A stretch of DNA of 64,000 nucleotides from Prochlorococcus sp. AG-418-M08 (GTDB lineage: Bacteria; Cyanobacteriota; Cyanobacteriia; PCC-6307; Cyanobiaceae), in the NCBI GenBank assembly GCA_003213955.1, contig QCMG01000001.1, positions 62,001-126,000 on the forward strand, written 5' to 3'. The translations under genes were made by a program, and so were the position numbers. The notes beneath the pieces are model-generated. The model was not told where the DNA came from and did not search any database. It saw only the letters and a list, made by a program, of their open reading frames with translations. This document shows positions 15,819-53,064 of the stretch, one piece after another. The stretch's first letter is position 1. Every line of letters begins with the position of its first letter.

Positions 15819-18800
15819 CTAAAAATTAATAGGTCTCCAGTCACCACTTAGCTGGAATGCTGCCCAAACATATGGATGCCTCCAGCCTGGAGTGCTGTGA
15901 TTTCTAAACTCTTTTTGAGTTGCAGCTAAAGCATCAGCTCTGCCTTCTCCTTTTTTAAGCCTTTCATAGAAACTTTCCATAAAAGCTGCTGTTGCTATAT
16001 CATTAACCTCCCATAAAGAAAGTAAACTTGATCTTGCCCCGGCAACAGCTATAGCACGTTTTAATCCATAAACACCTTCTCCAGATTGAATATCACCTTT
16101 ACCAGATTCACATGCAGAGATGACTACTAATTCCGTATCTTGCCAATCAACTTTGGTAACTTCTAAAGCAGTTAAATAACCATCATCTTTAGGATTGGCT
16201 TCTGGTTCATTTGCACCTGCTAAAACAATGCCACTTCTTAGTAATGGGTTCTCTCCTTTTTCCTGATCAGGTAAATAATAAGCATGGCTAGCGATATGTA
16301 AGATTTTTGGTGCTTGTTGTTGTTCTTGTAATGCTAAAGATGTTGCCTTGTCTTTTGTTAATAGCTTAGCGTTGATTAATTCCGCAATAACATTCCCTTC
16401 TTTTGCACTTCCAGTCAAAGGATCCCAATTAAAAGAAGTTAGATCGCCAGAACGTTTTTGAGATGTATTGCTCGCAATTAGATTTGATTCTTTTTTGGAT
16501 TGGTTTGTTTTAACCAGGTTGAATGCTGGATTAGCAACAACAAGTGATTTTTGTTTGCTGGATTTTGACCTTTTAGCGAGATCTAGTAGTTCGCGGCCTG
16601 TTGTTAGTAGACGTATCTTGACTGCATCACCGAGCAATTGATCATCTTTATGAGAACGGAGTGCAGCAAAAGGAATACGGTTTAGCTCTGCATCAGGAGA
16701 AATAAAGAAGGTTTCTGCATCACCGATTGCTTCTTTTAATGGCTTAATCACTAACTCACCTACTTCTTCCCATAGTTGCTGGGCATCTGCTAATCCTTCT
16801 TCTGATGCTTGTAATGCCTTTATGATTTTTTTATCGATAATATCAGAGGTACCTAGATTTATTGCTGACTTTTCGCCATTAGGATTAAGTACTAAAGCCA
16901 GGTAATGTTGTTTGCCCTCTTCATTAGTTGACTTGGCGGAGTCAAAAGCAGTGTATCGCTGAAATTCAATCAAAATACCATTTCTTGGAATTGATTTTGC
17001 AACATCCTCCACAGTTACAAGACGAGGTTTTAGCTTAGGGAGTATGCGATAGAGTTTTTTCTCTAATTTTTCTTTTCTTTTTATAAGATCTCCTCGTTCT
17101 TTATCTTTTAATACTGAAGATGCTAGCTTTTGAATTACTTCTTTTAATTCCGCAGCAATTTGTTTTTGAGGACCTTCTAATTTAGCAAGCTTAGCCTGGC
17201 GACTTTCAATTTCTTCTAATAAACCATGACGGTTAAGTCTTGCATATAAGGCAAGTTCAATTCCGGAATCATCCTTTGATACAAAATCAAAACTTCTAAA
17301 ATAACCCCGCTGAGAGTTTGCAACAAAGGATTCTCGGTCATTAAGGGGGAGGTAAGGAGATTCTTTTTGAATAAAAGTAATTTGTAGTTTTTGTGCACGA
17401 AAGATTAATGGTATAGCTTTCTCATATAATCCTTGCGATGAATAATTTAGTGCTAAAGGAATTAGTGTATTGTCTATATAAATATTGCTAGGACCTAAAG
17501 TAGATCTTTCCAAAATGGATAAAGCTCGCAAGTATAAAGTTTCTGCTTTGCTGTAAAGTCCTTGACTATGATAAAGATTCGCTAAATTATTCGTAGAGAC
17601 TGCTGTATCAACATGATCCCATCCTAGGGATTTTTCTTTAATAGATAAAGCACGTTGATATAGAGGTTCTGCTTTGCTGTATAGTTCCTGAGCCCTATAA
17701 AGTAGGGCTAAAGCGTTTACTGTAGATGCTGTGAAGTTATGGTTAGGTCCTAAGGTTTTTTCTGCAATAGATAAAGCTCGTAAGTATAAAGGTTCTGCTT
17801 TGCTATATAGTCCCTGTAAGTAATAAAGGTAACCTAAATCCTCAAGAGAACTTCCTGTGTCGGGATGGTTAGGTCCTAAGGTTTTTTCTGCAATAGATAA
17901 AGCTCTTAAGTAAAAAGGCTCTGCTTTGCTATATAGTCCCTGATTAGAATAAAGACCCGCTAAACTTCCGACCACTTTTGCTGTATGAGGATGATCTGTT
18001 CCTGCATCTTTTTCTATAATAGATAAAGCTCTTAAGTAAAAAGGCTCCGCTTTGCTGTAATCACCCTTTGTTTTATAGAGATTCGCTAAATTTACTAGAA
18101 ATAATCCTACGCGAAGATCTTCAGGTCCTAAAGTTTTTTCTGCAATAGATAAAGCACGTTGATATAGAGGTTCCGCTTTGTTGTATTTTCCCTGATAATA
18201 ATAAAATAAGGCCAAATTGTTTATACTAAATGTCGTTTTAGCATGTTCAGGTCCTAAGGTTTTTTCTGCAATAGATAAAGCACGTTGAAATAGAGGTTCC
18301 GCTTTGTTGTATTTTCCCTGAATAGCATAAAGAGATGCCAAATTGTTGAGCGCAGTTCCTGTCCCAGAATGTTCAGGTCCTAGGGATTTTTCTTTAATAG
18401 ATAAAGCACGTTGATATAGAGGTTCTGCTTTGTTGTATTTTCCCTGATCTTTATACACATTTGCTAACTCCATAAGAGTAGATGCTGTATTAGGATTTTC
18501 TGGTCCTATTGCCTTTTCGTCTATAGACAGAAGACGTAAATATAGAGTTTCTGCTTTTTCATAAATTCCTTGCCTTTTATAAAGGCGAGCTAAATTTATA
18601 AGTGTGAATCTTGCAGGATGTTGAACCCAATATTTTTTATTTTTACCTGATTTTCCATCTCTAATTACCCGCTCATTTTCTAATATAAGAATCCTTTCAT
18701 ATAGATCTATAGCTTGAGAATAGTTCTGTAAATTTTTTGCTTCTTCAGCTACTTTTTTAAGTTCTTTAATATCATTATCGAGATTTGATTTTTCTTTTCT

Positions 18801-18917
18801 CTCCCCAACCAGGCCATCAGGAACGACTTCAGCTAATAAGGAACTTTCAATTGCTACTGGCATAAGGAAAGCCAGTGCTAGAGAAAAAGGTCTAATTATA
18901 TCTGAAAATCTTTTCAT
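15819..18917 (-). CDS. Secreted TPR-CHAT caspase-like protein 1
   Basis: 1032 residues. A signal peptide (about 1-30) is followed by ten or so 42-residue TPR units of the kinesin-light-chain type (KAEPLYQRALSIAEKTLGPEH), a linker, and a C-terminal CHAT domain. The caspase-like dyad is intact: His in LHIASHAYY and Cys in VVISACESG. The DGYLTAL, GVYGLKRAIAVAGARSSLLSLW and final AFQLSGDWRPI segments are also canonical. The signal peptide implies action in the periplasm or outside. CHAT-TPR proteins are known as proteases in defence and regulation. The repeats are nearly identical in DNA, and the CHAT end is almost identical to the neighbour at 20619. Confidence 0.88.
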   Translation of the reverse strand: MKRFSDIIRPFSLALAFLMPVAIESSLLAEVVPDGLVGERKEKSNLDNDIKELKKVAEEAKNLQNYSQAIDLYERILILENERVIRDGKSGKNKKYWVQHPARFTLINLARLYKRQGIYEKAETLYLRLLSIDEKAIGPENPNTASTLMELANVYKDQGKYNKAEPLYQRALSIKEKSLGPEHSGTGTALNNLASLYAIQGKYNKAEPLFQRALSIAEKTLGPEHAKTTFSINNLALFYYYQGKYNKAEPLYQRALSIAEKTLGPEDLRVGLFLVNLANLYKTKGDYSKAEPFYLRALSIIEKDAGTDHPHTAKVVGSLAGLYSNQGLYSKAEPFYLRALSIAEKTLGPNHPDTGSSLEDLGYLYYLQGLYSKAEPLYLRALSIAEKTLGPNHNFTASTVNALALLYRAQELYSKAEPLYQRALSIKEKSLGWDHVDTAVSTNNLANLYHSQGLYSKAETLYLRALSILERSTLGPSNIYIDNTLIPLALNYSSQGLYEKAIPLIFRAQKLQITFIQKESPYLPLNDRESFVANSQRGYFRSFDFVSKDDSGIELALYARLNRHGLLEEIESRQAKLAKLEGPQKQIAAELKEVIQKLASSVLKDKERGDLIKRKEKLEKKLYRILPKLKPRLVTVEDVAKSIPRNGILIEFQRYTAFDSAKSTNEEGKQHYLALVLNPNGEKSAINLGTSDIIDKKIIKALQASEEGLADAQQLWEEVGELVIKPLKEAIGDAETFFISPDAELNRIPFAALRSHKDDQLLGDAVKIRLLTTGRELLDLAKRSKSSKQKSLVVANPAFNLVKTNQSKKESNLIASNTSQKRSGDLTSFNWDPLTGSAKEGNVIAELINAKLLTKDKATSLALQEQQQAPKILHIASHAYYLPDQEKGENPLLRSGIVLAGANEPEANPKDDGYLTALEVTKVDWQDTELVVISACESGKGDIQSGEGVYGLKRAIAVAGARSSLLSLWEVNDIATAAFMESFYERLKKGEGRADALAATQKEFRNHSTPGWRHPYVWAAFQLSGDWRPINF
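17480..18570 (-). repeat. 126-base tandem repeats encoding TPR units
   Basis: About nine head-to-tail units of 126 bases (42 codons), each with a recurring 'TCTGCAATAGATAAAGC' and 'TCTGCTTTG' core at regular spacing. They encode the TPRs of the CHAT protein. The high DNA similarity suggests recent expansion or gene conversion. Confidence 0.8.
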
Positions 18918-19067
18918 TTATTTCTTAATTAATTAATGACTAAAATTACTTTTTTTGGTTAATTTTGAACTGACTTGAACATAAATTTATCATTTCCTTT
19001 AACATGCAAAACCTGCTCAAAAGGGATTAATAAAAATAGAAATACATTTTTCATATAATCAACAAAG

Positions 19068-19991
19068 CTATTTACTTTCTAAAAGATTTTTAACACTAGC
19101 TTTGAAATTATCTGAATTTTTGCAGTTATCTGCTTTTTTGTGAGCATTTTCATAACCTAATTCTGAAGCTTTTATCCAATCAGTGCATGCTTCTTTATAT
19201 TTATCATTATTGTAATTAATTAGTCCTCTATTAAAATATGCATATTCCAAATTTGGATTTATAGAAATCGCTTTAGAATAATCATCTAATGAACCTTCAT
19301 AATCGTTTATTTCTCCCTTAGAATATCCTCGAGCAGCATAAGCAAGATAATCTTTTTGATCAATTTTTATAGCCTTAGTAAAATCAGAAATAGCTGCGTA
19401 ATGATCTTCAAGTTTAGATTGTATATAACCCCTACCGTAAAAAGCGTAGGAATTTTTAGAATTTAAATCTATAACAGTTGTAAAATCACTAATAGCTCCT
19501 GATAAATCGCCAATATCTGATTTTGCATATGCTCTATTTATATATGCATTCTCATAGTCTTTTTTTAAATAAATAGCTTTGTTGTAATCAGAAATCGCTC
19601 CATAGTAGTCTTTTATTTCTTCCTTTACATAACCTCGATTATAAAAAGCTAAGTAGTATGTTTTATCTATTTCTATTACTTTTGAATAATCAGAGATAGC
19701 TCCCTCGTAATCTTTTATTTTGCTCTTTGATAAAGCTCTTCTAAATAAAGCATGCTTATTTTTTGGATTATTATTTAATATTTTAGAATATTCAACTATT
19801 GCACTTTGATAATCATTATTCTTGTATTTGATATCGGCATTATTGAAGATATTTTGAGGATTTTTTTCGCCAATATTCTTTTGAATTTTATCTTCAAATG
19901 TATTTGAAGATACATAGTACGAATTAGAAAGAATTGCAGCAGGATAACTTAATAAAAATCCTGCTGCGATAATAATTAATTGTTTTTGCAT
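19068..19991 (-). CDS. Secreted TPR protein
   Basis: 307 residues. A signal peptide or anchor (LIIIAAGFLLSYPAAILSNSYY) is followed by about seven 34-residue TPRs, each with the DY-GAI-DY-KAI pattern (KDYEGAISDYSKVIEID). The C-terminus is a Sel1-like ACTDWIKASELGYENAHK segment. It is expected to be a protein-binding scaffold outside the cytoplasm. It lies 29 bases downstream of the PH-like gene, with which it may be co-transcribed from motif copy 4. Its location between two CHAT genes suggests a partner role. Confidence 0.8.
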   Translation of the reverse strand: MQKQLIIIAAGFLLSYPAAILSNSYYVSSNTFEDKIQKNIGEKNPQNIFNNADIKYKNNDYQSAIVEYSKILNNNPKNKHALFRRALSKSKIKDYEGAISDYSKVIEIDKTYYLAFYNRGYVKEEIKDYYGAISDYNKAIYLKKDYENAYINRAYAKSDIGDLSGAISDFTTVIDLNSKNSYAFYGRGYIQSKLEDHYAAISDFTKAIKIDQKDYLAYAARGYSKGEINDYEGSLDDYSKAISINPNLEYAYFNRGLINYNNDKYKEACTDWIKASELGYENAHKKADNCKNSDNFKASVKNLLESK

Positions 19992-20020
19992 TTTATAAAC
20001 TTATAGAAAATATTTAATTT

Positions 20021-20560
20021 TTAATCCGTTTCAACTTCTTCAATTTCTAGATCATGATGGGCTATTGCTTTTCTAAAAAATTTAAAGTCATCTTGATTTT
20101 TCATTAATTGAATATTCTCTTTTCTTAATTGACTTGAGAAAAAATAATCAGGGTTACTTCCTGTTATGAAATTACCAATAATTGATAAAGATATTGTATA
20201 TGCAGAATAAAAATGTCTTACTTTTTTTAATCTTTTTAGAGAATTTATATCTAATACACTAATTATGGGAAGTAATGAGGAACGATAATTAACTTGCCAG
20301 TAAGTATTCCATAAAATAATTCGCTTATCAGTTACTAATAGATTGCTTCGTGTAGCACATAAGCCATATCTTCTTACGCACAATGATGTATATAAAAATT
20401 TTTCATTTTCTATAGATTCAAATTCCTTCATCTTATAAATTTCCCGAACCATTTCTTGATCAACAGCCACATCTTTAGACCAGTTGTAAGTGGGATATGT
20501 TAGTCCAATTTTTTCAAAACCTTTATTTACAGTGTTTAGAATTTTGGTTGCTTTAGACAT
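20021..20560 (-). CDS. PH-domain-like protein, unknown
   Basis: 179 residues without a signal peptide. The segment SNLLVTDKRIILWNTYWQ resembles bacterial PH-like domains (LLVT--RI-------). The preceding part has an unusual YTSLCVRRYGLCATR segment. The match is weak and the function unknown. It is the first gene after motif copy 4 (30 bases upstream) and is followed by the secreted TPR gene. Confidence 0.5.
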   Translation of the reverse strand: MSKATKILNTVNKGFEKIGLTYPTYNWSKDVAVDQEMVREIYKMKEFESIENEKFLYTSLCVRRYGLCATRSNLLVTDKRIILWNTYWQVNYRSSLLPIISVLDINSLKRLKKVRHFYSAYTISLSIIGNFITGSNPDYFFSSQLRKENIQLMKNQDDFKFFRKAIAHHDLEIEEVETD

Positions 20561-20589
20561 TTAATAAAATAAAAACTCTAAATACTTTT

Positions 20590-20615
20590 AGTTCTCACTT
20601 TGATAATGTGATTCC
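20590..20615 (-). promoter_or_regulatory. Island promoter motif, copy 4
   Basis: Minus strand: GGAATC, 14 bases, AGAACTAA. It lies 30 bases upstream of ATG 20560 and overlaps the 3' flank of nothing annotated. Confidence 0.65.
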
Positions 20616-20618
20616 AAA

Positions 20619-23600
20619 TTAAAAATCAATTGGTCTCCAGTCCCCGCTTAATTGAAATGCTGCCCAGTAGTAAGGATGACGAAATCTAAGAATAGAATGA
20701 TTTTTAAATTCTTTTTGTGTTTCAGCCAAAGCTTCTGATCTTCCCATTCCATCCTTAAGTTTTTGATAGAATTTCTCCATAAAATCTGTTGTTGCTATAT
20801 CATCAACCTTCCATAAAGAAAGTAAACTTGATCTTGCCCCGGCAACAGCGATAGCACGCTTAAGACCATAAACACCTTCTCCAGATTGAATATCACCTTT
20901 ACCCGAATCACATGCAGAGATGGCTACTAATTCTGTACCCTGCCAATTTAGTTTGCTTACTTCTAAAGCAGTTAAATAACCATCATCTTTAGGATTAGCT
21001 TCTGGTTCATTGGCACCAGCTAAAACAATGCCACTTCTTAGTAATGGGTTTTCTCCTTTTTCTTGGTCAGGTAAATAGTATGCATGGCTAGCAATATGTA
21101 AGACCTTGCGAGCTTGTTGTTGTTCTTGTAATGCTAAAGCTGTAGCATTATCTTTTGTTAATAGCTGAGCTTTGGTTAATTTCGCAATAACTTTTCCTTC
21201 TTTTGCTGTACCCGGTAAAGGGCTCCAATTGAAAGAAGTTAGATCACCAGATCGTTGCTGGGATTGATTACTAGCAATTAGATTTGGTTCTTGTTTGGTT
21301 TGATTTGTTTTAACCAAGTTGAATGCTGGATTAGCAATAACTAGTGGTTTTTGTTTTGCTGATTTAGAGCGTTTAGCGAGATCTAATAGTTCGCGGCCTG
21401 TTGTTAGTAGACGTATGTTGACCACATCACCGAGCAATTGATCATCTTTATGAGAGCTTAGAGCCGCAAATGGAACACGGTTTAACTCAGCATCAGGAGA
21501 AATAAATAAAGTTTGTGCATCACCTATTGCTTCTTTTAAAGGTTTAATCAATACATCTCCTACTTCTTTCCATCTTTTTTGGGCATCTGCTAATCCTTCT
21601 TCTGTTACATAAAGAGCTTTGTTAATTATTTTATGGATGTTTTCAGCTGAACCAATATCAAAAGCACTTATTTTTCTTTTTGAGTTTAGCAATATTGCAA
21701 GATAACGCTCTTCCCCTAAAGCCCAGCCAGAATTAAATTTTGCCTTAAGAATAGATTTATTTATTTTTTTATTATTTCTTAAAATTAAAAAATCTAATTT
21801 TTTATCAAAATTATTAAAAAGTTCCTTCTCCGCTGCAGAATAATTTCCCCCTGTACTTGAAATATTATTGACAGATAATATTATATCTCCTTTTTTAATA
21901 CCTGCTTTATCTGAAGGTGAATCTTTGAAAACTTTTACTACTTTTATTCCCTTATTAATTTCGTTGAGATAGTTTATACCAATTCCAAAAAAAGTTTCTT
22001 GGGTGTAAGGTTTGTATTTTTGAAATTCAATTAAAATCGAATTTTTTGGCAATGCATTAGCAACTTGGGAAACTTCAATAATTTTTGGCTTTATGATTGG
22101 TAATTTCCTATAAAGTTTTTTTTCTAATAATTCTTTTTTCTCTTTCAGAGATCCTATTTCAGAAGAATATTCTTTGAAAGGTGAAATTTTATTATTTATT
22201 ATTCTTATTTCATTAATAATTTTTTCTTTTGGATCAAGAATTTTAGAAAGACGCATTTGATTTCTTTCAATTTCTTGTATTAAGCCTTGTGTATTTAGTC
22301 TTGCAAAAAGAGCTAATTCTTTGCCATTTTGATTTTTGAAAATACTATATAAAGTTCCTGGATTAAAAAGATTTACCTCCTCAACAAATATTTCTCTATC
22401 TTTGGAAGATAAAAATGGAAGTTCTTTTTGTATAAATGTTACTTCATTTTTCAATCTCTCCAGAAAAAATAATTTTGATTTTTCATAATTTCCCTCTTCT
22501 AAATATAAATATGCCAATGGAGTCATTTGAGATAACTCGTAACTATCCTTACCATATATTTTTCTATTAATATCTAAAGCTTCTTCATATCGATTTATGG
22601 CTTTTTCATTAAAACCCATATAACGGTTATAACTTGCAAGAGTTGAAATTATTAAAGCTGTACTGGGGTGTTCTAAACCAAAAATATTTTTATATATATC
22701 TAAAGATTTATCAATTAAAGGTTTTGCTTTTTCATATTCTCCAGTTCGTAAATAAAGTCCAGATAAAGTATGAGAAGTAAGAGCTACTGGAGCAGAAACT
22801 AACCCAAAGATTTTTTTATTTTCATTAAGAACTTTTGTCAGGATTTTCTCAGCATTGTCAAAATCATTTTTTGATAAATAATCTGTAGCGAGGTTATTAG
22901 ATGATATTAGTGTTATATAATGATTTTCTCCATAAACCTTTTTTCTGATTTCATACGCTTTTTTATCAAATTCAATAGATTTATCGTAAAGGTATTGGCT
23001 TGAATAAATTAATGCTAAATTACTATAGATTACCGCAGTATATTCACTTTCATTTCCATAAACTTTTTTTCTAATAGATAATGCTCTAAAAAGAAGGGGT
23101 TCCGCTTGACTATATTCACCTTTATACCAATTTACTAGAGCTAGATCATTTAAAGAAGTAGCAATCAATTTGTCATCAGGAGATAAAATCTTCTCTTTAA
23201 TTGATAATGCTTTTTTAATATTTTTTTCTGCTTCATTATAAAGTCCTAGTTCAAGATAATTTTCACCCAGAGCATTCAAAGTTATAGCAGTATCTTCATT
23301 ATTAAAGCCTAATTTTTGTTTTTCAATTTCTAAAGCTCTAAGAAAAAAACTTTCAGCTTTTTTGAATTTACCTGAATCATTATAATTACGGCCAATCGCA
23401 AAAAGGGTTCTAGCAACATCAAGATTATCTTTACCTAATGTTTTTTCTTCTAATTTCAAAGTTCTTATAAGAATATCGTTTGCTTTTTCAAATAGTCCTA
23501 TTTCACTATATAAATTTCCTAATAAATAAAGTCCATATATATAATCTTCATGTTCTTCACTATAAGAATTTTTAACTATTTCTAATGCCTTGAGATAGTG

Positions 23601-24077
23601 GCCCTCGGCATTTTGGTAAAAGTTTTTTCCTTTGCGCTCATCTAAATATCCAAGATTAAAATGTATATCAACTAATTGGAAATCGTTGTCACCTAATTGA
23701 TCATTTTTTATCCTAAGTGACTGATTATAAAAGTGTTCAGACTTTTCAAATTCACTTTTTTGTCTGTATATTCTAGCTATCCATTTCAAAGTATTTGCAA
23801 CTTCAATATCATTCTCACCAAGAACCTTTTTTTCTATTTTTAATCCTTTTTCAAGAAAATTAATAGCTTTCTCATATTCCTTATTATCTTCAGCCTCAAT
23901 AGCTAATTTAGTAATTTTCTCTATTTCTTTAAGTAATTGATTTTCTTTCAGTTTATTTTCTGCAATTAAATAATCATTGGTAATTTCTGTACCAATTATT
24001 TCTCCATTAAAATTCATTGGGATTATTAAACTAAATGTAAAAAATATATTCTTTATTGCACTTTTAAAATTCTTCAA
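20619..24077 (-). CDS. Secreted TPR-PDZ-CHAT caspase-like protein 2
   Basis: 1152 residues: a signal peptide (about 1-26), about eleven TPRs, a linker, then a CHAT region interrupted by a PDZ-like domain (GIGINYLNEINKGIKVVKVF, DSPSDKAGIKKGDIILSVN), which lies between SILIEFQKYKPY and ERYLAILLNSK. The CHAT dyad is intact: LHIASHAYY and VAISACDSG. The last roughly 400 residues are nearly identical to the neighbour at 15819, including at the DNA level, while the TPR half differs. The PDZ could recognise exposed C-termini, as in Deg/Ctp proteases. This layout is unusual for CHAT proteins. The promoter motif is not evident upstream. Confidence 0.88.
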   Translation of the reverse strand: MKNFKSAIKNIFFTFSLIIPMNFNGEIIGTEITNDYLIAENKLKENQLLKEIEKITKLAIEAEDNKEYEKAINFLEKGLKIEKKVLGENDIEVANTLKWIARIYRQKSEFEKSEHFYNQSLRIKNDQLGDNDFQLVDIHFNLGYLDERKGKNFYQNAEGHYLKALEIVKNSYSEEHEDYIYGLYLLGNLYSEIGLFEKANDILIRTLKLEEKTLGKDNLDVARTLFAIGRNYNDSGKFKKAESFFLRALEIEKQKLGFNNEDTAITLNALGENYLELGLYNEAEKNIKKALSIKEKILSPDDKLIATSLNDLALVNWYKGEYSQAEPLLFRALSIRKKVYGNESEYTAVIYSNLALIYSSQYLYDKSIEFDKKAYEIRKKVYGENHYITLISSNNLATDYLSKNDFDNAEKILTKVLNENKKIFGLVSAPVALTSHTLSGLYLRTGEYEKAKPLIDKSLDIYKNIFGLEHPSTALIISTLASYNRYMGFNEKAINRYEEALDINRKIYGKDSYELSQMTPLAYLYLEEGNYEKSKLFFLERLKNEVTFIQKELPFLSSKDREIFVEEVNLFNPGTLYSIFKNQNGKELALFARLNTQGLIQEIERNQMRLSKILDPKEKIINEIRIINNKISPFKEYSSEIGSLKEKKELLEKKLYRKLPIIKPKIIEVSQVANALPKNSILIEFQKYKPYTQETFFGIGINYLNEINKGIKVVKVFKDSPSDKAGIKKGDIILSVNNISSTGGNYSAAEKELFNNFDKKLDFLILRNNKKINKSILKAKFNSGWALGEERYLAILLNSKRKISAFDIGSAENIHKIINKALYVTEEGLADAQKRWKEVGDVLIKPLKEAIGDAQTLFISPDAELNRVPFAALSSHKDDQLLGDVVNIRLLTTGRELLDLAKRSKSAKQKPLVIANPAFNLVKTNQTKQEPNLIASNQSQQRSGDLTSFNWSPLPGTAKEGKVIAKLTKAQLLTKDNATALALQEQQQARKVLHIASHAYYLPDQEKGENPLLRSGIVLAGANEPEANPKDDGYLTALEVSKLNWQGTELVAISACDSGKGDIQSGEGVYGLKRAIAVAGARSSLLSLWKVDDIATTDFMEKFYQKLKDGMGRSEALAETQKEFKNHSILRFRHPYYWAAFQLSGDWRPIDF

Positions 24078-24305: not shown

Positions 24306-24929
24306 TTAAATAGTAATATCTTCTTCAATAAATATTCCTCTAACATATGCTCTTGGAATTTGTAATGACTCGGATAAATCAAAGAGCATCTCAAGTTCAT
24401 TTTTAGTAACGGTTTTATCCTCAGAAATTATTTTAATACTTGCTCTTAAGATTGCTTCTTTACCAAATTCGTTTGCAATAGTACTAAGTTGATTTGCAAT
24501 TTGGGTGTATGTTTTATCTGAATTTTTGACTCTTTGATAAGCGTTCATAAGTAAATCTTTATCAAGCGAAATTTGAGTAGCTTGCAAATATGCGTTCTCT
24601 ATTTTGCTAATATCGAGATTTTCTATTGAGTTTTTTGTAATAGCTAATTTTATTAAGAGATCTAATATAAGCAATAAATAAACCGCTTTGTATTCTTCAG
24701 CTTCTTTTTCCGGGTCATAATCTAATATTTTTTTATCATATGTTGTTTTACAAGATGTACATTCGACATATTCTCCATGATCTTGAATAGGAAAAGTCCT
24801 TACGAAATATAACGTAAAGTATTGTTTACTATGCTTAAGTTCATATTGTCTGTGACCTTGGCAATGTGGACAATAAAATCTACCACTCTCTTTTGTAGAA
24901 GCTTTACTTCTAGAACCCCAAATAATCAT
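24306..24929 (-). CDS. Zinc-ribbon / TerB-like protein
   Basis: 207 residues. The N-terminal zinc ribbon (FYCPHCQGH ... VECTSCKTTYD, four Cys) with the intervening YFTLYFVRTFP is the family found in front of TerB-like domains. The C-terminal helical part (KIISEDKTVTKNELEMLFDL) fits TerB, a tellurite-resistance-type all-helical domain seen in stress and defence gene sets. It is cytoplasmic. It has its own island promoter motif 32 bases upstream. Confidence 0.65.
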   Translation of the reverse strand: MIIWGSRSKASTKESGRFYCPHCQGHRQYELKHSKQYFTLYFVRTFPIQDHGEYVECTSCKTTYDKKILDYDPEKEAEEYKAVYLLLILDLLIKLAITKNSIENLDISKIENAYLQATQISLDKDLLMNAYQRVKNSDKTYTQIANQLSTIANEFGKEAILRASIKIISEDKTVTKNELEMLFDLSESLQIPRAYVRGIFIEEDITI

Positions 24930-24960
24930 TTCTAAATTTTTATAAATTACAGATATTATT

Positions 24961-24986
24961 AGTTCTGTTTTTTTTTAATTGATTCC
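24961..24986 (-). promoter_or_regulatory. Island promoter motif, copy 5
   Basis: Minus strand: GGAATC, 14 bases, AGAACTAA. It lies 32 bases upstream of ATG 24929. Confidence 0.65.
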
Positions 24987-25008
24987 AAAATACTTATTTT
25001 TTAAAAAG

Positions 25009-26199
25009 TTATTTGCAATTATCAGTTTTTATTATTTCTTTTATAGATTTTTTAATTCTCTGAGATGATGGGGCTCTTTCTGAAAGCAATATGGTAAGAG
25101 CAGTATTATTGTCTTTATCTAAATTTCTTTTAATAAAACTTATCCAATCACTTTTTGATTTGCCTAAACTTTTTTCAATATTGTCTTTATTCAAAAGAGG
25201 AATATTTTTATCAAATACAAAATCTATTTCTAGTTTAGAGCCCATTCCAGATCCTTCTGGCCTAAGAGATAGTCTATAAGAATCTTTTTTATTTATAGAA
25301 TTTAATGGCCAATTAATTGGTCCATTAATTTTTTCTTTTGATGAAGCTATTTTTTCCCAAACAATATTTCCATTTTTTGAAATATTTATTTCATTAAGTG
25401 GTTTTAGAGAATATATCACTGGCTTATCTATTTTTATTTTTGCTTCAAAATTATTATTTATATTTTTTGCAAGTGTAGGAGTTAAAAGACATATCGAATT
25501 ACTATCAGAACTTCTTGTAAAACTTTGGATTTCATATGTGCTTGGGCTTAGCTTAGCAATACCACCTATCAATCTAGGTCTAATTATTTGAGGACCTATT
25601 AGAGCTGCCATTAATCCACCAGCTATTAATGGAGTAGATAGATTAAATTTAATTTTTAAACTTGGAATCTTAAAATTAGATATTGCAGTATTAAAATATG
25701 TTCTTTCTATAGATTCAGGATTTAATAATCTTACATATCTTATTAATCGTTCAATACCTCCTTTGAAATTCTCAATCTCGATCCCAACAGAATCTTTCTT
25801 TAGTTCTTTTTTACTAACAATTTTCTCAAATTCAGTACTTTTTAAAACACCCTTAAAGTATATAACGTCTAAATCTTCTTCTAATTGAGCCGCTAAAAAT
25901 AATTGTGGCCCTTTATTCTTGATTTTTGAATTTTTTAAAGGTATTTGAATAACATCGGAAATTAAACTTGTATATACAATTTGTATATCAAACTTATTTA
26001 AAATAATTGATCTTTGAGGATTATTTAAATCTAATTTTGGTCCCAAAGGTAAATCAAGATTTTTATCTTTTAAATACTTTTTTAAAGCACTAATTATTTT
26101 ATCTCTTGGGTCTAGATTTTTTTTGGAATTAATGTAAATTGCATCATTAGGTATTGGAAATAAATCTAAAGGGTCGTTATTCGAATTTTTCTTTGTCAT
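25009..26199 (-). CDS. Large unknown protein, DUF1822-like outline
   Basis: 396 residues with no signal peptide. It begins DPLDLFPIPNDA; near 200 there is a Gly/Ala stretch (PLIAGGLMAALIGPQIIRP); the C-terminal half is beta-rich (YRLSLRPEGSGMGSKLEIDF). In outline it recalls cyanobacterial DUF1822 proteins, which to my memory sit beside sigma-factor and CHAT genes, but similarity is weak. Its ATG overlaps the upstream stop by 4 bases (ATGA), so it is translated with the 447-residue protein. Confidence 0.45.
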   Translation of the reverse strand: MTKKNSNNDPLDLFPIPNDAIYINSKKNLDPRDKIISALKKYLKDKNLDLPLGPKLDLNNPQRSIILNKFDIQIVYTSLISDVIQIPLKNSKIKNKGPQLFLAAQLEEDLDVIYFKGVLKSTEFEKIVSKKELKKDSVGIEIENFKGGIERLIRYVRLLNPESIERTYFNTAISNFKIPSLKIKFNLSTPLIAGGLMAALIGPQIIRPRLIGGIAKLSPSTYEIQSFTRSSDSNSICLLTPTLAKNINNNFEAKIKIDKPVIYSLKPLNEINISKNGNIVWEKIASSKEKINGPINWPLNSINKKDSYRLSLRPEGSGMGSKLEIDFVFDKNIPLLNKDNIEKSLGKSKSDWISFIKRNLDKDNNTALTILLSERAPSSQRIKKSIKEIIKTDNCK

Positions 26200-27539
26200 T
26201 TACTTATTACCTCATAAATAGTATTTCTTAGAATAGAAATATTATTTTTATCTTCGCTGAAAACTAAATAACTTTTTAAACCATCTAATAGTTTATCAAG
26301 GCTTTCTGGATCTTCTTTGAATTTATTAAATTCACTCTTTTTTAAAAGTTCAAAAGCACTTTCTTGAGCTATTTCTTCTGAAATCTTATTTTCAGGAATT
26401 AATTTACTTACCCAACCCTGCTTATGATCACATTTGGATGCAATCTCCCTTTGACTAAGACCTTCTCCATATAAAATCCATGCATTTTTCCTTGAGGGAT
26501 CCTTTATCCATTTTGTGCTGTCTTTTTTAATTATTTGATTAACTATATTTGTTGAATTTCTCCTTAAAACATTTTTTATAATTTCTGATAAATCTTTTGA
26601 AGAATATTCCTCTTCATCTTCAAGTTTATTTTCAATTTGATTTTCTTCATATTCATAAAAGTTTCTTGTGTCATAAGGACTAGATATATATTTCCTTAAA
26701 GCTTTATCAATTAACAATAATATTTCTGTGTTTTTTTGAGGTGGGTTTAGAGATTTTAAAAAATCTTCATCAGGAGACCATCCTGATATTTTACCTGTTC
26801 TATTTTTATAATCTTGCTTTGCCTTTTTATACTCCACTAAATATGATTCATATAATTTTTCTAAATCTTTGTCACTTAAATGGCCTTCACCATATTCTCG
26901 CCAAGAAATAATTATTCGTTTTTTAGAGCTATCTGCTATCAATGACCATGGAGAAATAAGTAGTATGCCACATTCTTTTAAATATTTTTTTAGTTCATAG
27001 TTACCTTTCACTTTGTTCTGACTCCAAGTATTTAGATTGGAAAGTTTAGGATTAAAATCTGCAATTACTTCTGCACTAAAAGGTCTTAAAATATTATTTT
27101 CTTTCATAATCATTAATGTTTCCCAGGAGAATAATTTCCTTACAAAATTATTCTTCTTTGCCTCAATTTTTAAAGGTATTCTTAAATATTTTTCACCGCT
27201 ATCATCTAAAACAATTATCAACATATCATTTAAATTAATTTTTTCATTCTCAAACTGATAAGTATATTTTTTAAATATTTCATTTACCTTTTGAAAAATC
27301 GGAAAACTTATTCTCCCTCTTAGAGCAAGAAGAGCGTCTTCTGAAGAATGGTCTTTTTTTGCTAAATCAAATATTTTATTATCAAATTTATTATCAAACT
27401 CTTGATCATATAAATTATGTTTAGAGCAAAAATCACTATCAATATCTAATAATTTTTGTTTTACCTTCCCACTAAATGAATCGAGACAATAAATATTGCA
27501 ATATCCTTTTGACAAAAGATTTAGATACTCTAGAAACAT
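26196..27539 (-). CDS. Large protein with C-terminal HTH, possibly sigma-like
   Basis: 447 residues. The N-terminal 280 residues are unrecognised. Near residue 355 there is a helix-turn-helix, LYGEGLSQREIASKCDHKQGWVSKLI, of the sigma-region-4/transposase type, followed by helical sequence. It may be an atypical sigma factor or an element regulator. The gene is 6 bases downstream of the DnaB-like gene and overlaps the 396-residue gene, so the three form an operon. Confidence 0.45.
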   Translation of the reverse strand: MFLEYLNLLSKGYCNIYCLDSFSGKVKQKLLDIDSDFCSKHNLYDQEFDNKFDNKIFDLAKKDHSSEDALLALRGRISFPIFQKVNEIFKKYTYQFENEKINLNDMLIIVLDDSGEKYLRIPLKIEAKKNNFVRKLFSWETLMIMKENNILRPFSAEVIADFNPKLSNLNTWSQNKVKGNYELKKYLKECGILLISPWSLIADSSKKRIIISWREYGEGHLSDKDLEKLYESYLVEYKKAKQDYKNRTGKISGWSPDEDFLKSLNPPQKNTEILLLIDKALRKYISSPYDTRNFYEYEENQIENKLEDEEEYSSKDLSEIIKNVLRRNSTNIVNQIIKKDSTKWIKDPSRKNAWILYGEGLSQREIASKCDHKQGWVSKLIPENKISEEIAQESAFELLKKSEFNKFKEDPESLDKLLDGLKSYLVFSEDKNNISILRNTIYEVISK

Positions 27540-27545
27540 ATTAAG

Positions 27546-28451
27546 TCAATCTAAAAGATTTCTAAACCTTGTATATTGAGGTTCAAATAATAATTTAACA
27601 GTCCCAACAGGACCATTTCTCTGCTTAGCTACAATTATCTCGGTTATACCTCTATCTAAAGTTTCAGGATTGTAGTATTCATCTCTATAAATAAAAGCTA
27701 TTAAATCAGCTCTATTTTCTATTACTTCCGAGTCTCTAATATCACTAAGCATAGGTCTTTTATTAGTTCTGGTTTCCAATTCTCTCTTTAATTGTGATGT
27801 AATTATTACGGGTACTTCAAGATTTATAGATAAATTTTTCAAATCATTCATGATTTTTGAAAGCTCATCTTCTCTTAAAATATTTCGGCCTAAACTCTTA
27901 TCTTCCAGAAGTTGTAGGAAATCAATAAATATTGCTCCAATATTTTGATTATGTATATTTTTTACTTTCTTACAAATTTGATAAATTTCTGAAACTTGTA
28001 TTAATGCTTTATCTATAAGATATATTGGGTTTTTATTTAGAAAAGAAATTGCCTCTCCAAGTATTGGCCATTCTTCCTGAGTTAGTCTTCCTGTTCTAAG
28101 TCGCCCAGACTCTATACCAATTTCCATTGAAAGCAATCTATGGCAAAGCATTTTCTGACTGGTCTCAAGTGAAAAGAAACATATTGGTAAATTATTTATT
28201 TGACTTATATTTTTTGCAATGTTTAGAACAAAAGATGTCTTCCCCATCGCTGGACGGCCTCCAATAACATATAAATTGCCGGGAGATAGTCCTTGTGTAA
28301 TAGCATCGAAATCATAAAAATTCACTGGTATCCCAGTACTTTTCTTATTACCAATTGAAGTTGCTTCAATATCATTGAAAACAGAATTTAATAAATCCTT
28401 TATTTTAAATTCAGATAAATCATCCTTGTCCTTATTTCTTTTGTTATTCAT
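27546..28451 (-). CDS. DnaB-type helicase C-terminal domain only
   Basis: 301 residues. It matches only the RecA-like C-terminal half of replicative DnaB: Walker A GGRPAMGKTSF, the LSMEIG-type helix after FFSLETS, Walker B AIFIDFLQLL, SQLKRELETR, the arginine-rich SDIRDSEVIENRAD and C-terminal AKQRNGPVGTVKLLF. The N-terminal domain that contacts primase is missing. It is probably an accessory ATPase of the mobile element (replication or transfer). It follows a 55-residue gene by 13 bases and precedes the HTH protein by 6. Confidence 0.85.
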   Translation of the reverse strand: MNNKRNKDKDDLSEFKIKDLLNSVFNDIEATSIGNKKSTGIPVNFYDFDAITQGLSPGNLYVIGGRPAMGKTSFVLNIAKNISQINNLPICFFSLETSQKMLCHRLLSMEIGIESGRLRTGRLTQEEWPILGEAISFLNKNPIYLIDKALIQVSEIYQICKKVKNIHNQNIGAIFIDFLQLLEDKSLGRNILREDELSKIMNDLKNLSINLEVPVIITSQLKRELETRTNKRPMLSDIRDSEVIENRADLIAFIYRDEYYNPETLDRGITEIIVAKQRNGPVGTVKLLFEPQYTRFRNLLD

Positions 28452-28464
28452 AATTTATGCCTAA

Positions 28465-28632
28465 TTAAAATACGTATTTATTTGGATTTGAATCTATATT
28501 TATTCCGATTTTTGGAAGTGAATTGTTAAATAAGTTAGAGGAAAATGATGGTTCAATTGTTAACAGATATCCAAATCCAATACCTGTAAACAAAATCCCT
28601 ATTAAAGAAGTAAAGATTGTTGTAAATTTCAT
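28465..28632 (-). CDS. Small membrane peptide leading the DnaB operon
   Basis: 55 residues: MKFTTIFTSLIGILFTGIGF gives one membrane or signal helix, then a short polar tail (LPKIGINIDSNPNKYVF). It is the first frame after motif copy 6 (31 bases upstream) and ends 13 bases before the DnaB-like gene. It has no recognised family. Its position at the head of the operon supports it being real. Confidence 0.5.
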   Translation of the reverse strand: MKFTTIFTSLIGILFTGIGFGYLLTIEPSFSSNLFNNSLPKIGINIDSNPNKYVF

Positions 28633-28662
28633 TTTTAGTTTTTATATGAACTGATTTCTTCT

Positions 28663-28688
28663 AGTTCTGGAAACTTAAAATTGATTCC
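28663..28688 (-). promoter_or_regulatory. Island promoter motif, copy 6
   Basis: Minus strand: GGAATC, 14 bases, AGAACTAG. It lies 31 bases upstream of ATG 28632. The terminator of the preceding gene ends immediately before it. Confidence 0.65.
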
Positions 28689-28694
28689 AAAAAA

Positions 28695-28721
28695 AAACCA
28701 GGTTATATACCTGGTTTTTTT
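28695..28721 (-). terminator. Rho-independent terminator
   Basis: Stem ACCAGGT/ACCTGGT extended by an A-run and a T-run on both sides, so it can act in either direction. It lies 24 bases after the stop of the 58-residue secreted peptide and separates it from motif copy 6. Confidence 0.85.
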
Positions 28722-28921: not shown

Positions 28922-28965
28922 AATAATTTTAAAATGTGGAGTTTAAACTCCGTACACATTTGCTT

Positions 28966-28991
28966 AGTTCTAAACTTTTCTAAGTGATTCC
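28966..28991 (-). promoter_or_regulatory. Island promoter motif, copy 7
   Basis: Minus strand: GGAATC, 14 bases, AGAACTAA. It lies 45 bases upstream of ATG 28921, and back-to-back with copy 8 on the other strand. Confidence 0.65.
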
Positions 28992-29002
28992 AAATTTAAA
29001 TA

Positions 29003-29028
29003 AGAATCAGTTTCATAAATCCAGAACA
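29003..29028 (+). promoter_or_regulatory. Island promoter motif, copy 8
   Basis: Plus strand: AGAATC, 14 bases, AGAACAAT. This copy has mismatches in each half but the exact spacing, and lies 25 bases upstream of ATG 29054. Confidence 0.5.
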
Positions 29029-29053
29029 ATACATTAATAAATCAAATTTATTA

Positions 29054-29436: not shown

Positions 29437-32343
29437 CTAATTAATGATTCTCCAATCTCCACTTAATTGAAATGCTGCCCAAACATTTGGATGTCTCCAA
29501 GCCTCTACGATATGTTTTCTAAACTCCTTTTGTGTTTCAAATAATGCCCTGTTCCTACTAAACCCAGATTTTAATTTTTTATAAAAACTTTCCATAAATG
29601 CTGCAGTAGGCTCATCTTTTACTTCCCAAAGAGATAACATGCTTGATCTTGCCCCCGCCACTGCAATTGATCTTTTCAGTCCATAAACCCCATCACCTGC
29701 TTTATTAACGCCTATTCCTGATTCACAACCTGAAATTACTACTAATTCTGTACCCAACCAATCTAGTTTACTTACTTCTAGTGCAGTTAAATAGCCATCA
29801 TCTAATTTATTAAGATTAGGAAAATTTGCACCAGATAATACTATCCCACTCCTTAAAAGTGGATTTTCAAATTTAGTATTTTTTTTATTTAGGTTATTTG
29901 AAAAAAGTAATGAAGATAAAATATTATTCTCTTCTTTATTACTTAAAAAGAAAGAATGAGAAGCGATATGAATGATTTTTGGAGATTCTTCTTTTTGTAT
30001 GTTTAATACAGATGCTTCATTTTTTAACAACAAATTAGCATTTATTTCATTAGCAATAAATAGCCCTTCTTTTTTTGTTGCTGGTAATTGACCCCATATT
30101 TTTAAATTTTGGTCGAATGAACGCTTTTGATTATAAATTTTTTTAGGCTTATTTGATTCTTTTTTATCCTTTACAATATTGGTTCGTAAATCGAAATTAG
30201 GATCAGCTGCTACTAAAGATTTATTTTTTTCAAGCTTATTTTTTTTATTTAAAATTACTAATTCTCTCCCAGTAGTTATCAGTCTTAATTCGAACTGATC
30301 CGCAAGAAATATATCTTTTTTATTTGCCATGGCAGAAAAAGGTATTCGATTTAATTCTGCATCTGGAGATATATATAATATTTCTTTATCATTTATAAAT
30401 TTTTCAAGCGGTTCTATTACTAGAGTTGCTACTTTATTCCACATTATTTGAGCATCAGGCAGATACTCTTCTGATGAAATCAGCGCTTTATTTATATAGT
30501 TTTCTATTTTTGAACTATCCCCCAAATCAATTGTTTCAACTTCTCCATTTGGGAATAATAGAAGTGCTTGATATCTAGGCTCTTCCCAATTATTTTCATT
30601 TAAAGCATCCTCAGGGTTCTCAAATATAAAGGGTCTATATTTTTGATACTCAATTAATACACCATTATTTGGAATCTCATTTGCTATTTCCTCAATTGAG
30701 TAAATCTTTGATTCAAGTTTTGGTAATGACTTATATAACTTGGATTCTAAGTTTTCTTTTTCAATAGTAAGACTATTGAATAAGTCCTGATCATTTGAAG
30801 TAATAGATGAAATTTTATTTGTTATTTTAATAATCTTATCTTTTAATATTTTTTGAGAACCTTCAAGTGATGTTATTTTGGCTTGTTTTCTCTCAATTTC
30901 CTCAAGCAATCCATGACGATTTAGCCTCGCATATAAGGCAAGATATTTTCCTTTTGGATGGATACTAGATGCAGAAAAAATTGCGGGATATGATATTCCA
31001 AGTGTTTTTACAAACTGGTCTCTTTTGGATAATGGTAAAAATGGTATTTGTTTTTGAATGAATTTAAATTGTAAATCAAGACTTTTTCTTAAATAGAAAT
31101 CTGTTTTTTCATACTCGCCATCATTAAAATGTACCATGGCTAAATTTATCAAAGGTTGAATCAATATTGGATTTTTATCACCATATATAGATTTAAAGTT
31201 TTTGAGTGACTCTTCGTGGTAGATTTTTGATTCTTTATTTTTTCCTTGAAACCATAAGACGCTCCCTATCATCCCTGATAAATATGGTTCAGGTTTTTTA
31301 AATTTCGAATCTTTAAATTGTAATTTATAAATTCTTTTTAAAATCTTTTCTGCTTTAGGTAATTTATTTTCCATGAAAGCAATATATGCAAGATTAAATT
31401 GCCCTTCTCCACTCCAGTAATCTATGATTTTTTTTGCTTTTTTAAATTCTTTTTGATCTATATAAATACCAACAAGAAGGTTCTTGCAAGAGCTGTAGTA
31501 AAAGGAATCGCTTCTTTCTTCTTTGCTTATATTTGACAAACATTTTTCCAGTAGTGATTCTGATTTATTATTATTCCCAACATAAGAGTTATAAAGTGAT
31601 TCTCTATAAAGTAGAGAAACATAACTTTCTTTGATATTTATTTTATTAAGTAGTTTTTTACCCTTAACTAATAATTCTGGGATCTCTTGATACTCTCCCA
31701 ACCTTAAATAAACATCTATTAAATATGTAATTGATAAAAAAATTTCATCTTCATTACCAAATTCGAAAACCGATTTAAAATCTGAAATGGCGCCATCTAG
31801 ATCATTTAGTAATTCTTTATAGTAACCTCGTAAATTAAATAAATAGGAATCGCTAGAATTTCTCTCAATGGCAAGATCTAAGTCATCAATAGCTTCAATA
31901 TATTTCCCTAAACTGCCTTTACTGTAAGCTCTTGCACCATATGGATAAGCTCTTCCAGGATCAAGCTCAATAGATTTAGTAAAGTCTGATATTGCACCAT
32001 TATGATCACCAAGCATTTGTTTGCTAAATCCACGACCATTAAAACTTGGTGCCCAGAGATTAGGATTTAATTCTATCGATCTAGAAAAATCTGTTTTTGC
32101 TCCTTCGTAATCACTTAAGTTGTTTTTGCTAACCCCTCTATGAAAATAAGCTTCCCAATTCGTTGGATATTGTTTAAGGAAGTCATTAATATCATCTAAT
32201 GCACCTGAGTAATCAGTATTTTCTATTTTTTCTATTCCTTCTAAAAGGAGCGAGTTGTGCGAAGCTGCTTTTCCTGATTTAAAAAATGTAAAATCTAAAA
32301 AATTACTACTGAATATAAAAGTAATTAAAAAAAATTTAAACAT
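29437..32343 (-). CDS. Secreted TPR-CHAT caspase-like protein 3
   Basis: 968 residues. A signal peptide (about 1-27) is followed by TPRs of two kinds: first the DY-GA--DF type, then longer units. A C-terminal CHAT domain follows, with its dyad intact: IIHIASHSFF and VVISGCESG. A roughly 20-residue insert follows the catalytic His (NKEENNILSS region). It is clearly homologous to, but more diverged from, the other two CHAT proteins. It starts directly after the stop of the zinc metallopeptidase gene (TGA then ATG), so the two proteases are translated together. It is expected to act outside the cytoplasm. Confidence 0.87.
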   Translation of the reverse strand: MFKFFLITFIFSSNFLDFTFFKSGKAASHNSLLLEGIEKIENTDYSGALDDINDFLKQYPTNWEAYFHRGVSKNNLSDYEGAKTDFSRSIELNPNLWAPSFNGRGFSKQMLGDHNGAISDFTKSIELDPGRAYPYGARAYSKGSLGKYIEAIDDLDLAIERNSSDSYLFNLRGYYKELLNDLDGAISDFKSVFEFGNEDEIFLSITYLIDVYLRLGEYQEIPELLVKGKKLLNKINIKESYVSLLYRESLYNSYVGNNNKSESLLEKCLSNISKEERSDSFYYSSCKNLLVGIYIDQKEFKKAKKIIDYWSGEGQFNLAYIAFMENKLPKAEKILKRIYKLQFKDSKFKKPEPYLSGMIGSVLWFQGKNKESKIYHEESLKNFKSIYGDKNPILIQPLINLAMVHFNDGEYEKTDFYLRKSLDLQFKFIQKQIPFLPLSKRDQFVKTLGISYPAIFSASSIHPKGKYLALYARLNRHGLLEEIERKQAKITSLEGSQKILKDKIIKITNKISSITSNDQDLFNSLTIEKENLESKLYKSLPKLESKIYSIEEIANEIPNNGVLIEYQKYRPFIFENPEDALNENNWEEPRYQALLLFPNGEVETIDLGDSSKIENYINKALISSEEYLPDAQIMWNKVATLVIEPLEKFINDKEILYISPDAELNRIPFSAMANKKDIFLADQFELRLITTGRELVILNKKNKLEKNKSLVAADPNFDLRTNIVKDKKESNKPKKIYNQKRSFDQNLKIWGQLPATKKEGLFIANEINANLLLKNEASVLNIQKEESPKIIHIASHSFFLSNKEENNILSSLLFSNNLNKKNTKFENPLLRSGIVLSGANFPNLNKLDDGYLTALEVSKLDWLGTELVVISGCESGIGVNKAGDGVYGLKRSIAVAGARSSMLSLWEVKDEPTAAFMESFYKKLKSGFSRNRALFETQKEFRKHIVEAWRHPNVWAAFQLSGDWRIIN

Positions 32344-51735: not shown

Positions 51736-53064
51736 TTGAGAATTAAAAACCCATTTAACAATAAATATCTTTATTTATTACCTTTGGCTTTTTCTGGAAT
51801 TGTTTTTCTGGAAAATGTAAAACCTTCTATTTTAGAAAATGGTCACAAAGAGATAATTGATCGGGTTTGGCACGTGGTTTATAACGATTTTCTTGATCCC
51901 GAGGGCGATTTTGATAAATCGAAATGGATTAAATTAAGAAAAAAAATCTTATCAAAAAAATATTTAGATCCGCAAGATGCTCATAATTCTATTAGAGAAA
52001 TGCTGGCCACCCTAAATGATCCTTATACCAGATTTTTGGATCCATCGGAATTTGACCAAATGAAGATTGATCTTTCTGGAGAATTGATTGGGGTTGGTAT
52101 ACAAATAGCTATAGATGAAAATGATGATTTAATAGTTGTTTCCCCTATTGAAGGTTCTCCAGCAATTGAAGCTGGAATAAAACCCGAAGATAAAATAATA
52201 TCAATTGACAATATTAGTACTAAAGGGATGAATATAGAAAAAGCTGTTCAATTAATTAGAGGAGAAAAAGATACAAAAATTAAATTAGTCTTATCAAGAA
52301 AAGGGATAATCCTAGATAAATTGCTTTTAAGAAAGACTATAAATATAAAATCAGTATCAAGTAAGATTAATTCCTCTAAAGATGGATACCTCCTCGGTTA
52401 TATAAGAATAAATAAATTTGGGAACAAAACATCAAATGAATTGAGGAACATTTTAGTTGATTTGGAAAAAAATAGTATTTCAGGTTACGTTCTTGATTTA
52501 AGGTGGAATCCTGGGGGCTCTCTTCAGTCTAGTATTGATATTTCAAGGCAATTTATAGATAAAGGAATTATCGTTAGTACTTTGACTAAAGATGGATTAA
52601 AAGATATTACAAAAGCAAAAGGAATTTCACTAACAAAAAAGCCATTAATAGTTTTAGTAAATGAAGGTTCAGCTAGTGCTAGTGAAATAGTTTCTGGAGC
52701 AATAAAAGATAATAAAAGAGGAAAACTCGTTGGTAAAAGAACTTTTGGAAAAGGCCTTGTCCAAACAATGTCCCCTTTGAGAGATGGCTCAGCAGTTACT
52801 CTTACAATTGCTAAATATTTAACTCCCAATGGAATAGATATAAATAAATTTGGTATTTCGCCTGACGTTGAGGTTAAAATGAACAGCAATCCGATTCTTC
52901 AGAGAGAAATCGGTACTAGAAAAGATAGACAATATAGAGCTGGAGAGAAGGAACTTATTAAAATAATAAATAGGAATAAGTTATTAAGCCAGTTTGATCC
53001 AAATTCTTCAAATTTATTATCGGTTTTCAAAACTAATGATAATTTAATTTATTCTTTAAATTAG
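51736..53064 (+). CDS. C-terminal processing protease (S41)
   Basis: 442 residues. An N-terminal membrane or signal segment (YLYLLPLAFSGIVF), then a PDZ domain (about 100-190: GVGIQIAIDE, SPAIEAGIKPEDKIISI) and the S41 catalytic domain with Ser in GSASASEIVSGA and Lys in GKRTFGKGLVQ. Cyanobacterial Ctp enzymes process proteins such as the D1 precursor. The start is TTG 51736. It is convergent with nadA, overlapping by 4 bases. Confidence 0.9.
   Translation: MRIKNPFNNKYLYLLPLAFSGIVFLENVKPSILENGHKEIIDRVWHVVYNDFLDPEGDFDKSKWIKLRKKILSKKYLDPQDAHNSIREMLATLNDPYTRFLDPSEFDQMKIDLSGELIGVGIQIAIDENDDLIVVSPIEGSPAIEAGIKPEDKIISIDNISTKGMNIEKAVQLIRGEKDTKIKLVLSRKGIILDKLLLRKTINIKSVSSKINSSKDGYLLGYIRINKFGNKTSNELRNILVDLEKNSISGYVLDLRWNPGGSLQSSIDISRQFIDKGIIVSTLTKDGLKDITKAKGISLTKKPLIVLVNEGSASASEIVSGAIKDNKRGKLVGKRTFGKGLVQTMSPLRDGSAVTLTIAKYLTPNGIDINKFGISPDVEVKMNSNPILQREIGTRKDRQYRAGEKELIKIINRNKLLSQFDPNSSNLLSVFKTNDNLIYSLN

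Follow-up and report, generated by a model that had tools for sequence, protein, structure and literature searches.

A predicted PDZ domain of the Deg/Ctp type inserted in a TPR-CHAT protein of Prochlorococcus sp. AG-418-M08

The DNA analysed here is a stretch of 64,000 nucleotides (hereafter the window; C1:62001-126000, on the 318-kb contig QCMG01000001.1) from the 1.66-Mb, 98.8% complete genome of Prochlorococcus sp. AG-418-M08, and the subject is one of three minus-strand TPR-CHAT genes in it, which are the three CHAT matches of the genome. This gene, termed PDZ-CHAT, encodes a protein in which an inserted segment between an array of TPR repeats and a caspase-like CHAT domain is predicted to form a PDZ domain of the Deg/Ctp type (Table 1). 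As judged from its translation, PDZ-CHAT is a TPR-CHAT protein with an intact frame and with the CHAT-type histidine and cysteine kept: the CHAT profile PF12770 is matched over its positions 5-289 of 289, far above the cut-off of 24 bits, and His998 and Cys1056 are taken here to be the catalytic pair of the CHAT family. Among the 17 Pfam families matched by the protein (E up to 0.1), neither Peptidase_S41 nor a trypsin-family match is found. Residues 1-40 comprise a lysine-rich start followed by a hydrophobic stretch and then an L-x-A-E pattern, the last of which is common to CHAT1 and to the orthologue in Prochlorococcus marinus SCGC AAA795-J16 (L062), the closest named relative at the locus.

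Table 1. Features of the PDZ-CHAT gene and of other genes in the window.
Feature	Position in window	Strand	Basis or remark
PDZ-CHAT open reading frame (TPR-PDZ-CHAT protein)	20619..24077	(-)	1152 residues, TTG start
Signal-peptide-like N terminus, residues 1-40	23958..24077	(-)	inspection and hydrophobicity
TPR array, about residues 60-560, limits approximate	22398..23900	(-)	Pfam TPR_12 245.2 bits, TPR_10 176.6 bits
Inserted segment, residues 692-787, with predicted PDZ domain (PDZ_2 at residues 699-772)	21717..22004	(-)	Pfam, alignment, segment model
CHAT domain, Pfam match at residues 837-1146	20640..21569	(-)	250.5 bits; 253.8 bits in genome search
Predicted catalytic His998 (HIASHA)	21084..21086	(-)	invariant in 20 aligned CHAT sequences
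Predicted catalytic Cys1056 (ISACDSG)	20910..20912	(-)	invariant in 20 aligned CHAT sequences
CHAT1, TPR-CHAT paralogue without PDZ	15819..18917	(-)	last ~340 codons 84% DNA-identical to PDZ-CHAT gene
CHAT3, TPR-CHAT paralogue without PDZ	29437..32343	(-)
S41 protease, CtpA-like	51736..53064	(+)	its PDZ is the best insert match among the genome's other PDZ reading frames compared, 27.5 bits
tRNA-Ser	10615-10703
Tyrosine-recombinase-like gene	10913-12094		Pfam 21.7 bits, below cut-off of 27.1

An earlier, sequence-only reading of the locus had described the flanks of the segment as contiguous in the neighbouring CHAT proteins. Strictly, they are not, because a short loop lies there, with 31 residues between SILIEF and RYLAILL in CHAT1 and 36 in CHAT3; both distances are much shorter than the 118 residues of PDZ-CHAT, in which about 85 extra residues replace the short loop. 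The same reading had raised the prospect that the insert is a common variable loop of the family, which is contradicted by a survey of 62 CHAT open reading frames (ORFs) that all differ within the final 250 residues: 58 of them, CHAT1 and CHAT3 included, have 26-38 residues between the two motifs, the alignment at the loop being doubtful for the seven of these that form a divergent group (L024-L030). Four ORFs depart from this range: the copy of PDZ-CHAT itself with 118 residues, its L062 orthologue with 48, the distant and poorly aligned L063 with 67, and one that is truncated by the end of its locus, with 0. The insertion point is probably the loop of a β-hairpin that opens the protease module; although the model of the protease part is otherwise poor, strands E121-129, E232-239 and E244-251 flank the insert in it, with a predicted local distance difference test score (pLDDT) of 68-80 by block.

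Profile scores and structure prediction alike indicate that the insert is a PDZ domain of the Deg/Ctp type. Three Pfam cut-offs are passed by the whole protein (PDZ_2 with 30.6 against 27 bits, PDZ_6 with 27.9 against 27, PDZ with 26.1 against 23.2), and the segment scanned alone yields 35.2, 31.9 and 30.2 bits, respectively. Moreover, a PDZ profile built from five PDZ-protease ORFs (the genome's own CtpA, two further PDZ ORFs of the genome, L066 and L067), with the insert and the CHAT proteins left out, gives the insert 70.8 bits against 6.7 bits for the best of 1000 shuffles, 976 of which gave a reported score; this profile leans somewhat to the insert because L066 and L067 came from a search with the window query. 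On these scores, the sequence-only reading was right to locate a PDZ-like segment between LIEFQKYKPY and GEERYLAILL, and the structure prediction that it had proposed likewise returned a PDZ fold. The AlphaFold2 model of the segment, computed from an alignment of three sequences, two of them Ctp, adopts the PDZ topology with a mean pLDDT of 65.9 and with ten-residue blocks at 66-89 over residues 21-100. Foldseek matches this model to DegS, DegQ, DegP and Ctp chains of the PDB (best E 4.4e-6, probability 1.00), and VIA-align places it on DegS with Z 13.2 (root-mean-square deviation 2.5, 87 aligned) and on CtpB with Z 12.0 (3.6 and 99, respectively). For the other parts of the protein, a PDB profile search for CHAT relatives gave none at E 0.01, and relaxing the limit to E 10 brought in three rows of chance level, while TPR proteins were among the best 60 of 205 rows obtained with a TPR-including profile.

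That a common variable loop resembles a PDZ domain merely by chance deserves practically no credence: the somewhat longer loop of the L062 orthologue is all that was found to speak for it, and the Pfam scores, the 58 short loops among 62, the Foldseek matches and the shuffle test contradict it. An assembly chimera, as might be suspected of a segment carried by a single assembly, or a decaying gene is also very improbable, for the frame is open well inside the contig, the catalytic residues are kept and the GC content of the insert by codon position (0.32/0.28/0.15) is like that of the upstream part of the gene (0.39/0.26/0.14).

The kin of the insert were sought among eight PDZ-containing ORFs, of which the S41 Ctp-type L066 and L067, from other genomes of the phylum, score highest (39.0 and 36.1 bits), followed by the genome's own CtpA (Table 1), with two further PDZ ORFs of the genome at 20.1 and 19.2 bits. 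Altogether, the genome has six PDZ ORFs besides PDZ-CHAT, one of them below the Pfam cut-off. The stretch FFGIGI of the insert is aligned with LIGVGI of the own CtpA. An origin from this CtpA was considered, but the two are 27-28% identical and higher scores come from the Ctp-type PDZs of two genomes elsewhere in the phylum, so that no donor is named. In Ctps, the residues leading into the PDZ look similar to the CHAT strand EFQKYK, and a crossover at such a stretch between Ctp and CHAT genes is possible.

By the same kind of profile evidence, the fusion of PDZ and CHAT is not unique to the window protein. L172 (genome G1015) combines TPRs with a CHAT match at residues 501-962, inside which a PDZ domain is detected by PDZ_6 (32.0 bits, cut-off 27) and by PDZ (24.6 bits, cut-off 23.2), the PDZ_2 score staying below its Pfam cut-off. 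A query of 262 residues from L172 gave 25 matches in 17 of the 268 genomes of its class; the PDZ is spanned by 22 of the 25, in 15 genomes (that of L172 included), and the other three (L297, L298 and L306) are aligned only beyond the PDZ and give no PDZ match, so that relatives with and without a detected PDZ allow a direct comparison. With a PDZ profile built to include the window insert, E<=1e-3 is reached by 17 of these PDZ-spanning matches, and the other five have E from 0.0011 to 0.35; in a Pfam scan (E<=0.01) of the 11 plus-strand ORFs among the 22, CHAT is matched in 11, PDZ_6 in 10, PDZ in 9 and PDZ_2 in 7. These ORFs (L172/L282, L283-L296 and L299-L305) fall in the phylum of G928, a genome of the Phycisphaerae (a planctomycete class, phylum Planctomycetota), from which we infer that their source genomes are planctomycetes. 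LALGDP precedes and LPGTRxE follows their PDZ, which falls within the Pfam CHAT match and, by motif, at about residues 921-954 of PDZ-CHAT, whereas the hairpin-loop site of PDZ-CHAT precedes the Pfam CHAT match. Because the insertion sites differ, the sequences point to independent gains of the PDZ at two CHAT sites. Near the end of the planctomycete insert stands a conserved LGV-like motif, which could, at a guess, be the carboxylate loop in permuted order.

A further combination is found in L115:1497-5477(+), likewise from the phylum of G928, in which WD40 repeats, PDZ_2 (44.9 bits) and Peptidase_C14 (79 bits) occur in one chain; in five other large ORFs with PDZ hits from that phylum (L113, L114, L116, L117 and L118), no CHAT was seen on reading the translations. 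The capture of PDZ domains by caspase-fold proteases thus looks convergent from the domain orders. A broader proposal, which we hold tentatively and regard as somewhat doubtful, is that PDZ-gated caspase-fold proteases are a recurring, unnamed bacterial design, with a PDZ acquired independently at two TPR-CHAT loops (in a cyanobacterium and in planctomycetes) and again in a WD40-C14 protein, in which caspase-type cleavage would be tied to C-terminus recognition outside the cytoplasm.

PDZ profiles were run on 221 CHAT ORFs with differing C-terminal 200 residues, drawn from L001-L121 (62), the cyanobacterial phylum (89) and the phylum of G928 (70), many being truncated where their loci end. Two carriers emerged, PDZ-CHAT and L172, a count that is a lower bound because the profile is weak on planctomycete PDZs. 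No other insert-spanning match is present among the matches listed for 400 genomes of the family, nor any at E<=1e-8 in 386 genomes of the phylum; as the query is tuned to PDZ-CHAT and some genomes had just a portion of their first-look candidates scored, these searches could overlook distant fusions. Five scans of viral contigs gave no confirmed relatives, and phages gave a single match, in an unannotated record, which covers the PDZ part of the query only. On plasmids, the window query gave two CHAT matches without the PDZ part, and the whole L172 protein gave 100 records, none covering 80% of it, with the 15 listed covering 25-31%.

Each part of PDZ-CHAT is already known, and the combination is what is new, inasmuch as a search of the open-access literature did not find a PDZ inside a CHAT protease in print. 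Established TPR-CHAT proteases (PF12770), such as Csx29 and HetF, share with PDZ-CHAT the TPR and the CHAT with its His and Cys. The protease region of Csx29 is described as a pseudo-caspase plus an active caspase, separase-like (PMC10028731), and HetF as comprising TPR, a transmembrane segment and CHAT, with the CHAT part at residues 1-555 (PMC8406250). They differ in that no PDZ is reported in the text searched, where the string 'pdz' is absent from the HetF paper (PMC8406250) and has a single occurrence in the Csx29 paper (PMC10028731), as part of the title of a reference. Csx29 further differs in being switched by target RNA with Cas7-11; among the PDZ-CHAT neighbours scanned (part of the window's ORFs), no Cas family was found. 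Deg/HtrA proteins consist of a trypsin-like protease with the PDZ after it, and DegS, DegQ and DegP provide the best structural matches of the PDZ model, but they have neither CHAT nor TPR. CtpA and CtpB carry the closest PDZ sequences among those compared and are similarly proteases with a PDZ, served by a TPR partner in the LbcA-CtpA pair; in contrast, they are S41 serine proteases rather than caspase-fold enzymes, and the TPR is on a separate chain. The planctomycete proteins likewise combine a CHAT with a PDZ in a single chain, to which L172 adds TPR, and differ in the site of the PDZ, whereas L115 joins a PDZ to a caspase-fold protease with WD40 for TPR, C14 for CHAT and the PDZ between WD40 repeats. 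Lastly, the cyanobacterial orthocaspases (C14) have the caspase fold and varied accessory domains; 'pdz' occurs zero times in the main text of a survey of 473 of them (PMC8283722), as far as that text was available.

To our knowledge, caspase-like CHAT proteases are common in bacteria, and the substrate choice of most of them is not understood; since PDZ domains select short C-terminal motifs, the insert may offer a handle on the substrates of a CHAT protease. We give roughly an even chance to the reading that PDZ-CHAT is an exported TPR-CHAT cysteine protease whose Ctp/Deg-type PDZ would grip C-termini to direct or gate cleavage, with export, ligand and activity all predicted. The protein would pass the cell membrane, the TPR superhelix would hold a partner or substrate, and the PDZ groove would bind free C-termini in the periplasm. 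Such binding would tether a substrate or release the protease from inhibition, in the way that a bound peptide does with DegS, and the CHAT protease would cleave proteins chosen by their C-terminal tails or be switched on by such tails. Deg and Ctp proteases act in the compartment outside the cell membrane, the periplasm, so that in an exported PDZ-CHAT the PDZ would meet C-termini where these proteases act. By hydrophobicity, N termini resembling signal peptides or anchors are found in PDZ-CHAT, CHAT1, CHAT3, L062 and L172, and in CHAT1 and L062 the N-terminal peak exceeds the internal ones. DegS is controlled by C-terminal peptides, and structures of peptide-bound DegS, with C-terminal activating peptides, are by title among the Foldseek matches. 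In LbcA-CtpA, a TPR lipoprotein is described as triggering relocation of the PDZ and realigning the catalytic residues (PMC11021448), and the catalytic residues of the Csx29 CHAT domain are described as misplaced until target RNA binds and realigns them allosterically (PMC10028731); a gated or tethered protease is favoured because of these three parallels. The C-terminus recognition that the sequence-only reading ascribed to the insert is plausible in view of the CtpA-like FFGIGI stretch and the exported-looking N terminus.

Several observations weigh against the favoured reading. The two Ctp rows in the alignment of the segment model favour a PDZ outcome, and the protease part with the PDZ (593 residues, 4 rows) was modelled poorly (mean pLDDT 44.2, insert below 50), so that no claim is made on how the PDZ lies with respect to the active site. 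The case for export consists of inspection and hydrophobicity, and in both PDZ-CHAT and CHAT3 an internal stretch is more hydrophobic than the N-terminal peak (1.95 against 1.78 and 2.02 against 1.94, respectively). Furthermore, the syntenic CHAT gene of L062 has no PDZ, and a search of 266 genomes of the genus (87 of them at least 90% complete) gave matches at E<=1e-9 in 21, none of which spans the insert except that in the window's own genome. The PDZ might accordingly be real and yet dock a fixed partner, or be tolerated without function, with no choice of substrates by their C-termini. Restriction to one genome of the genus, with a syntenic allele lacking the PDZ, would suit this alternative, as would a region with recombinase-like and tRNA genes, where neutral mosaics are expected; nevertheless, we consider it less likely than the favoured reading, since the 288-base segment is in frame and shows the complete PDZ topology in its model and a Deg/Ctp-like loop, and since the 22 planctomycete CHAT matches keep a PDZ at another site.

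Window positions 24309-28699 and 28953-30103 align with L062 at 94% DNA identity, and in blastn the TPR and PDZ parts of the PDZ-CHAT gene scarcely align to it. Over its last 71 codons the gene has 91-97% identity with L062, and the preceding CHAT core resembles the paralogue CHAT1 (84% over 1028 columns) more than it does L062, so the CHAT genes of window 15819-24077 and of L062 5989-9237 look mosaic in their sequences. The absence of the PDZ elsewhere in the genus makes a gain at this locus seem likelier than a loss in L062. In the stretch compared, L062 has no CHAT1 gene and only about 100 bases that match the CHAT1 3' end; these short matches (84% over 101 bases), together with matches to intergenic parts of the window, lie at L062 11738-11906 and are perhaps the remnant of a lost CHAT1.

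The same pattern, in which 94%-identical flanks and a conserved 3' end enclose scarcely aligned TPR and PDZ parts as if a sensor had been swapped, could suggest a defence or cell-death effector, in which a caspase-like executioner, encoded in a variable island, would have TPR and PDZ as its fast-exchanging sensor. In one report, a CHAT and a TIR domain are named as key effector domains in bacterial defence (PMC10907252), which also speaks for this alternative. Against it, PADLOC-DB gave only a generic TPR model for two of the three CHAT proteins; for the 10 proteins scanned, the other hits were weak, namely mads_8 and PDC-M01A for a DnaB-like gene and Lit for a zinc peptidase. Csx29 is cytoplasmic, unlike what the hydrophobic N termini of the window proteins suggest, and overall an effector of this kind appears improbable. 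Among eight proteins compared with PHROGs, the DnaB-like helicase and a ribonucleotide reductase are matched, and the other six are without a match.

As for the neighbouring genes, two without a Pfam match and a short DnaB-like helicase gene (window 25009-28451) adjoin the CHAT genes and are present in L062 too. A Zn_peptidase (PF04228) gene at 32344-33102 directly precedes CHAT3 and is the one with the weak PADLOC match to Lit (E 0.0052). The tRNA-Ser gene stands beside the tyrosine-recombinase-like gene (window 10615-12094), a possible genomic-island edge, perhaps that of a tycheposon-like element.

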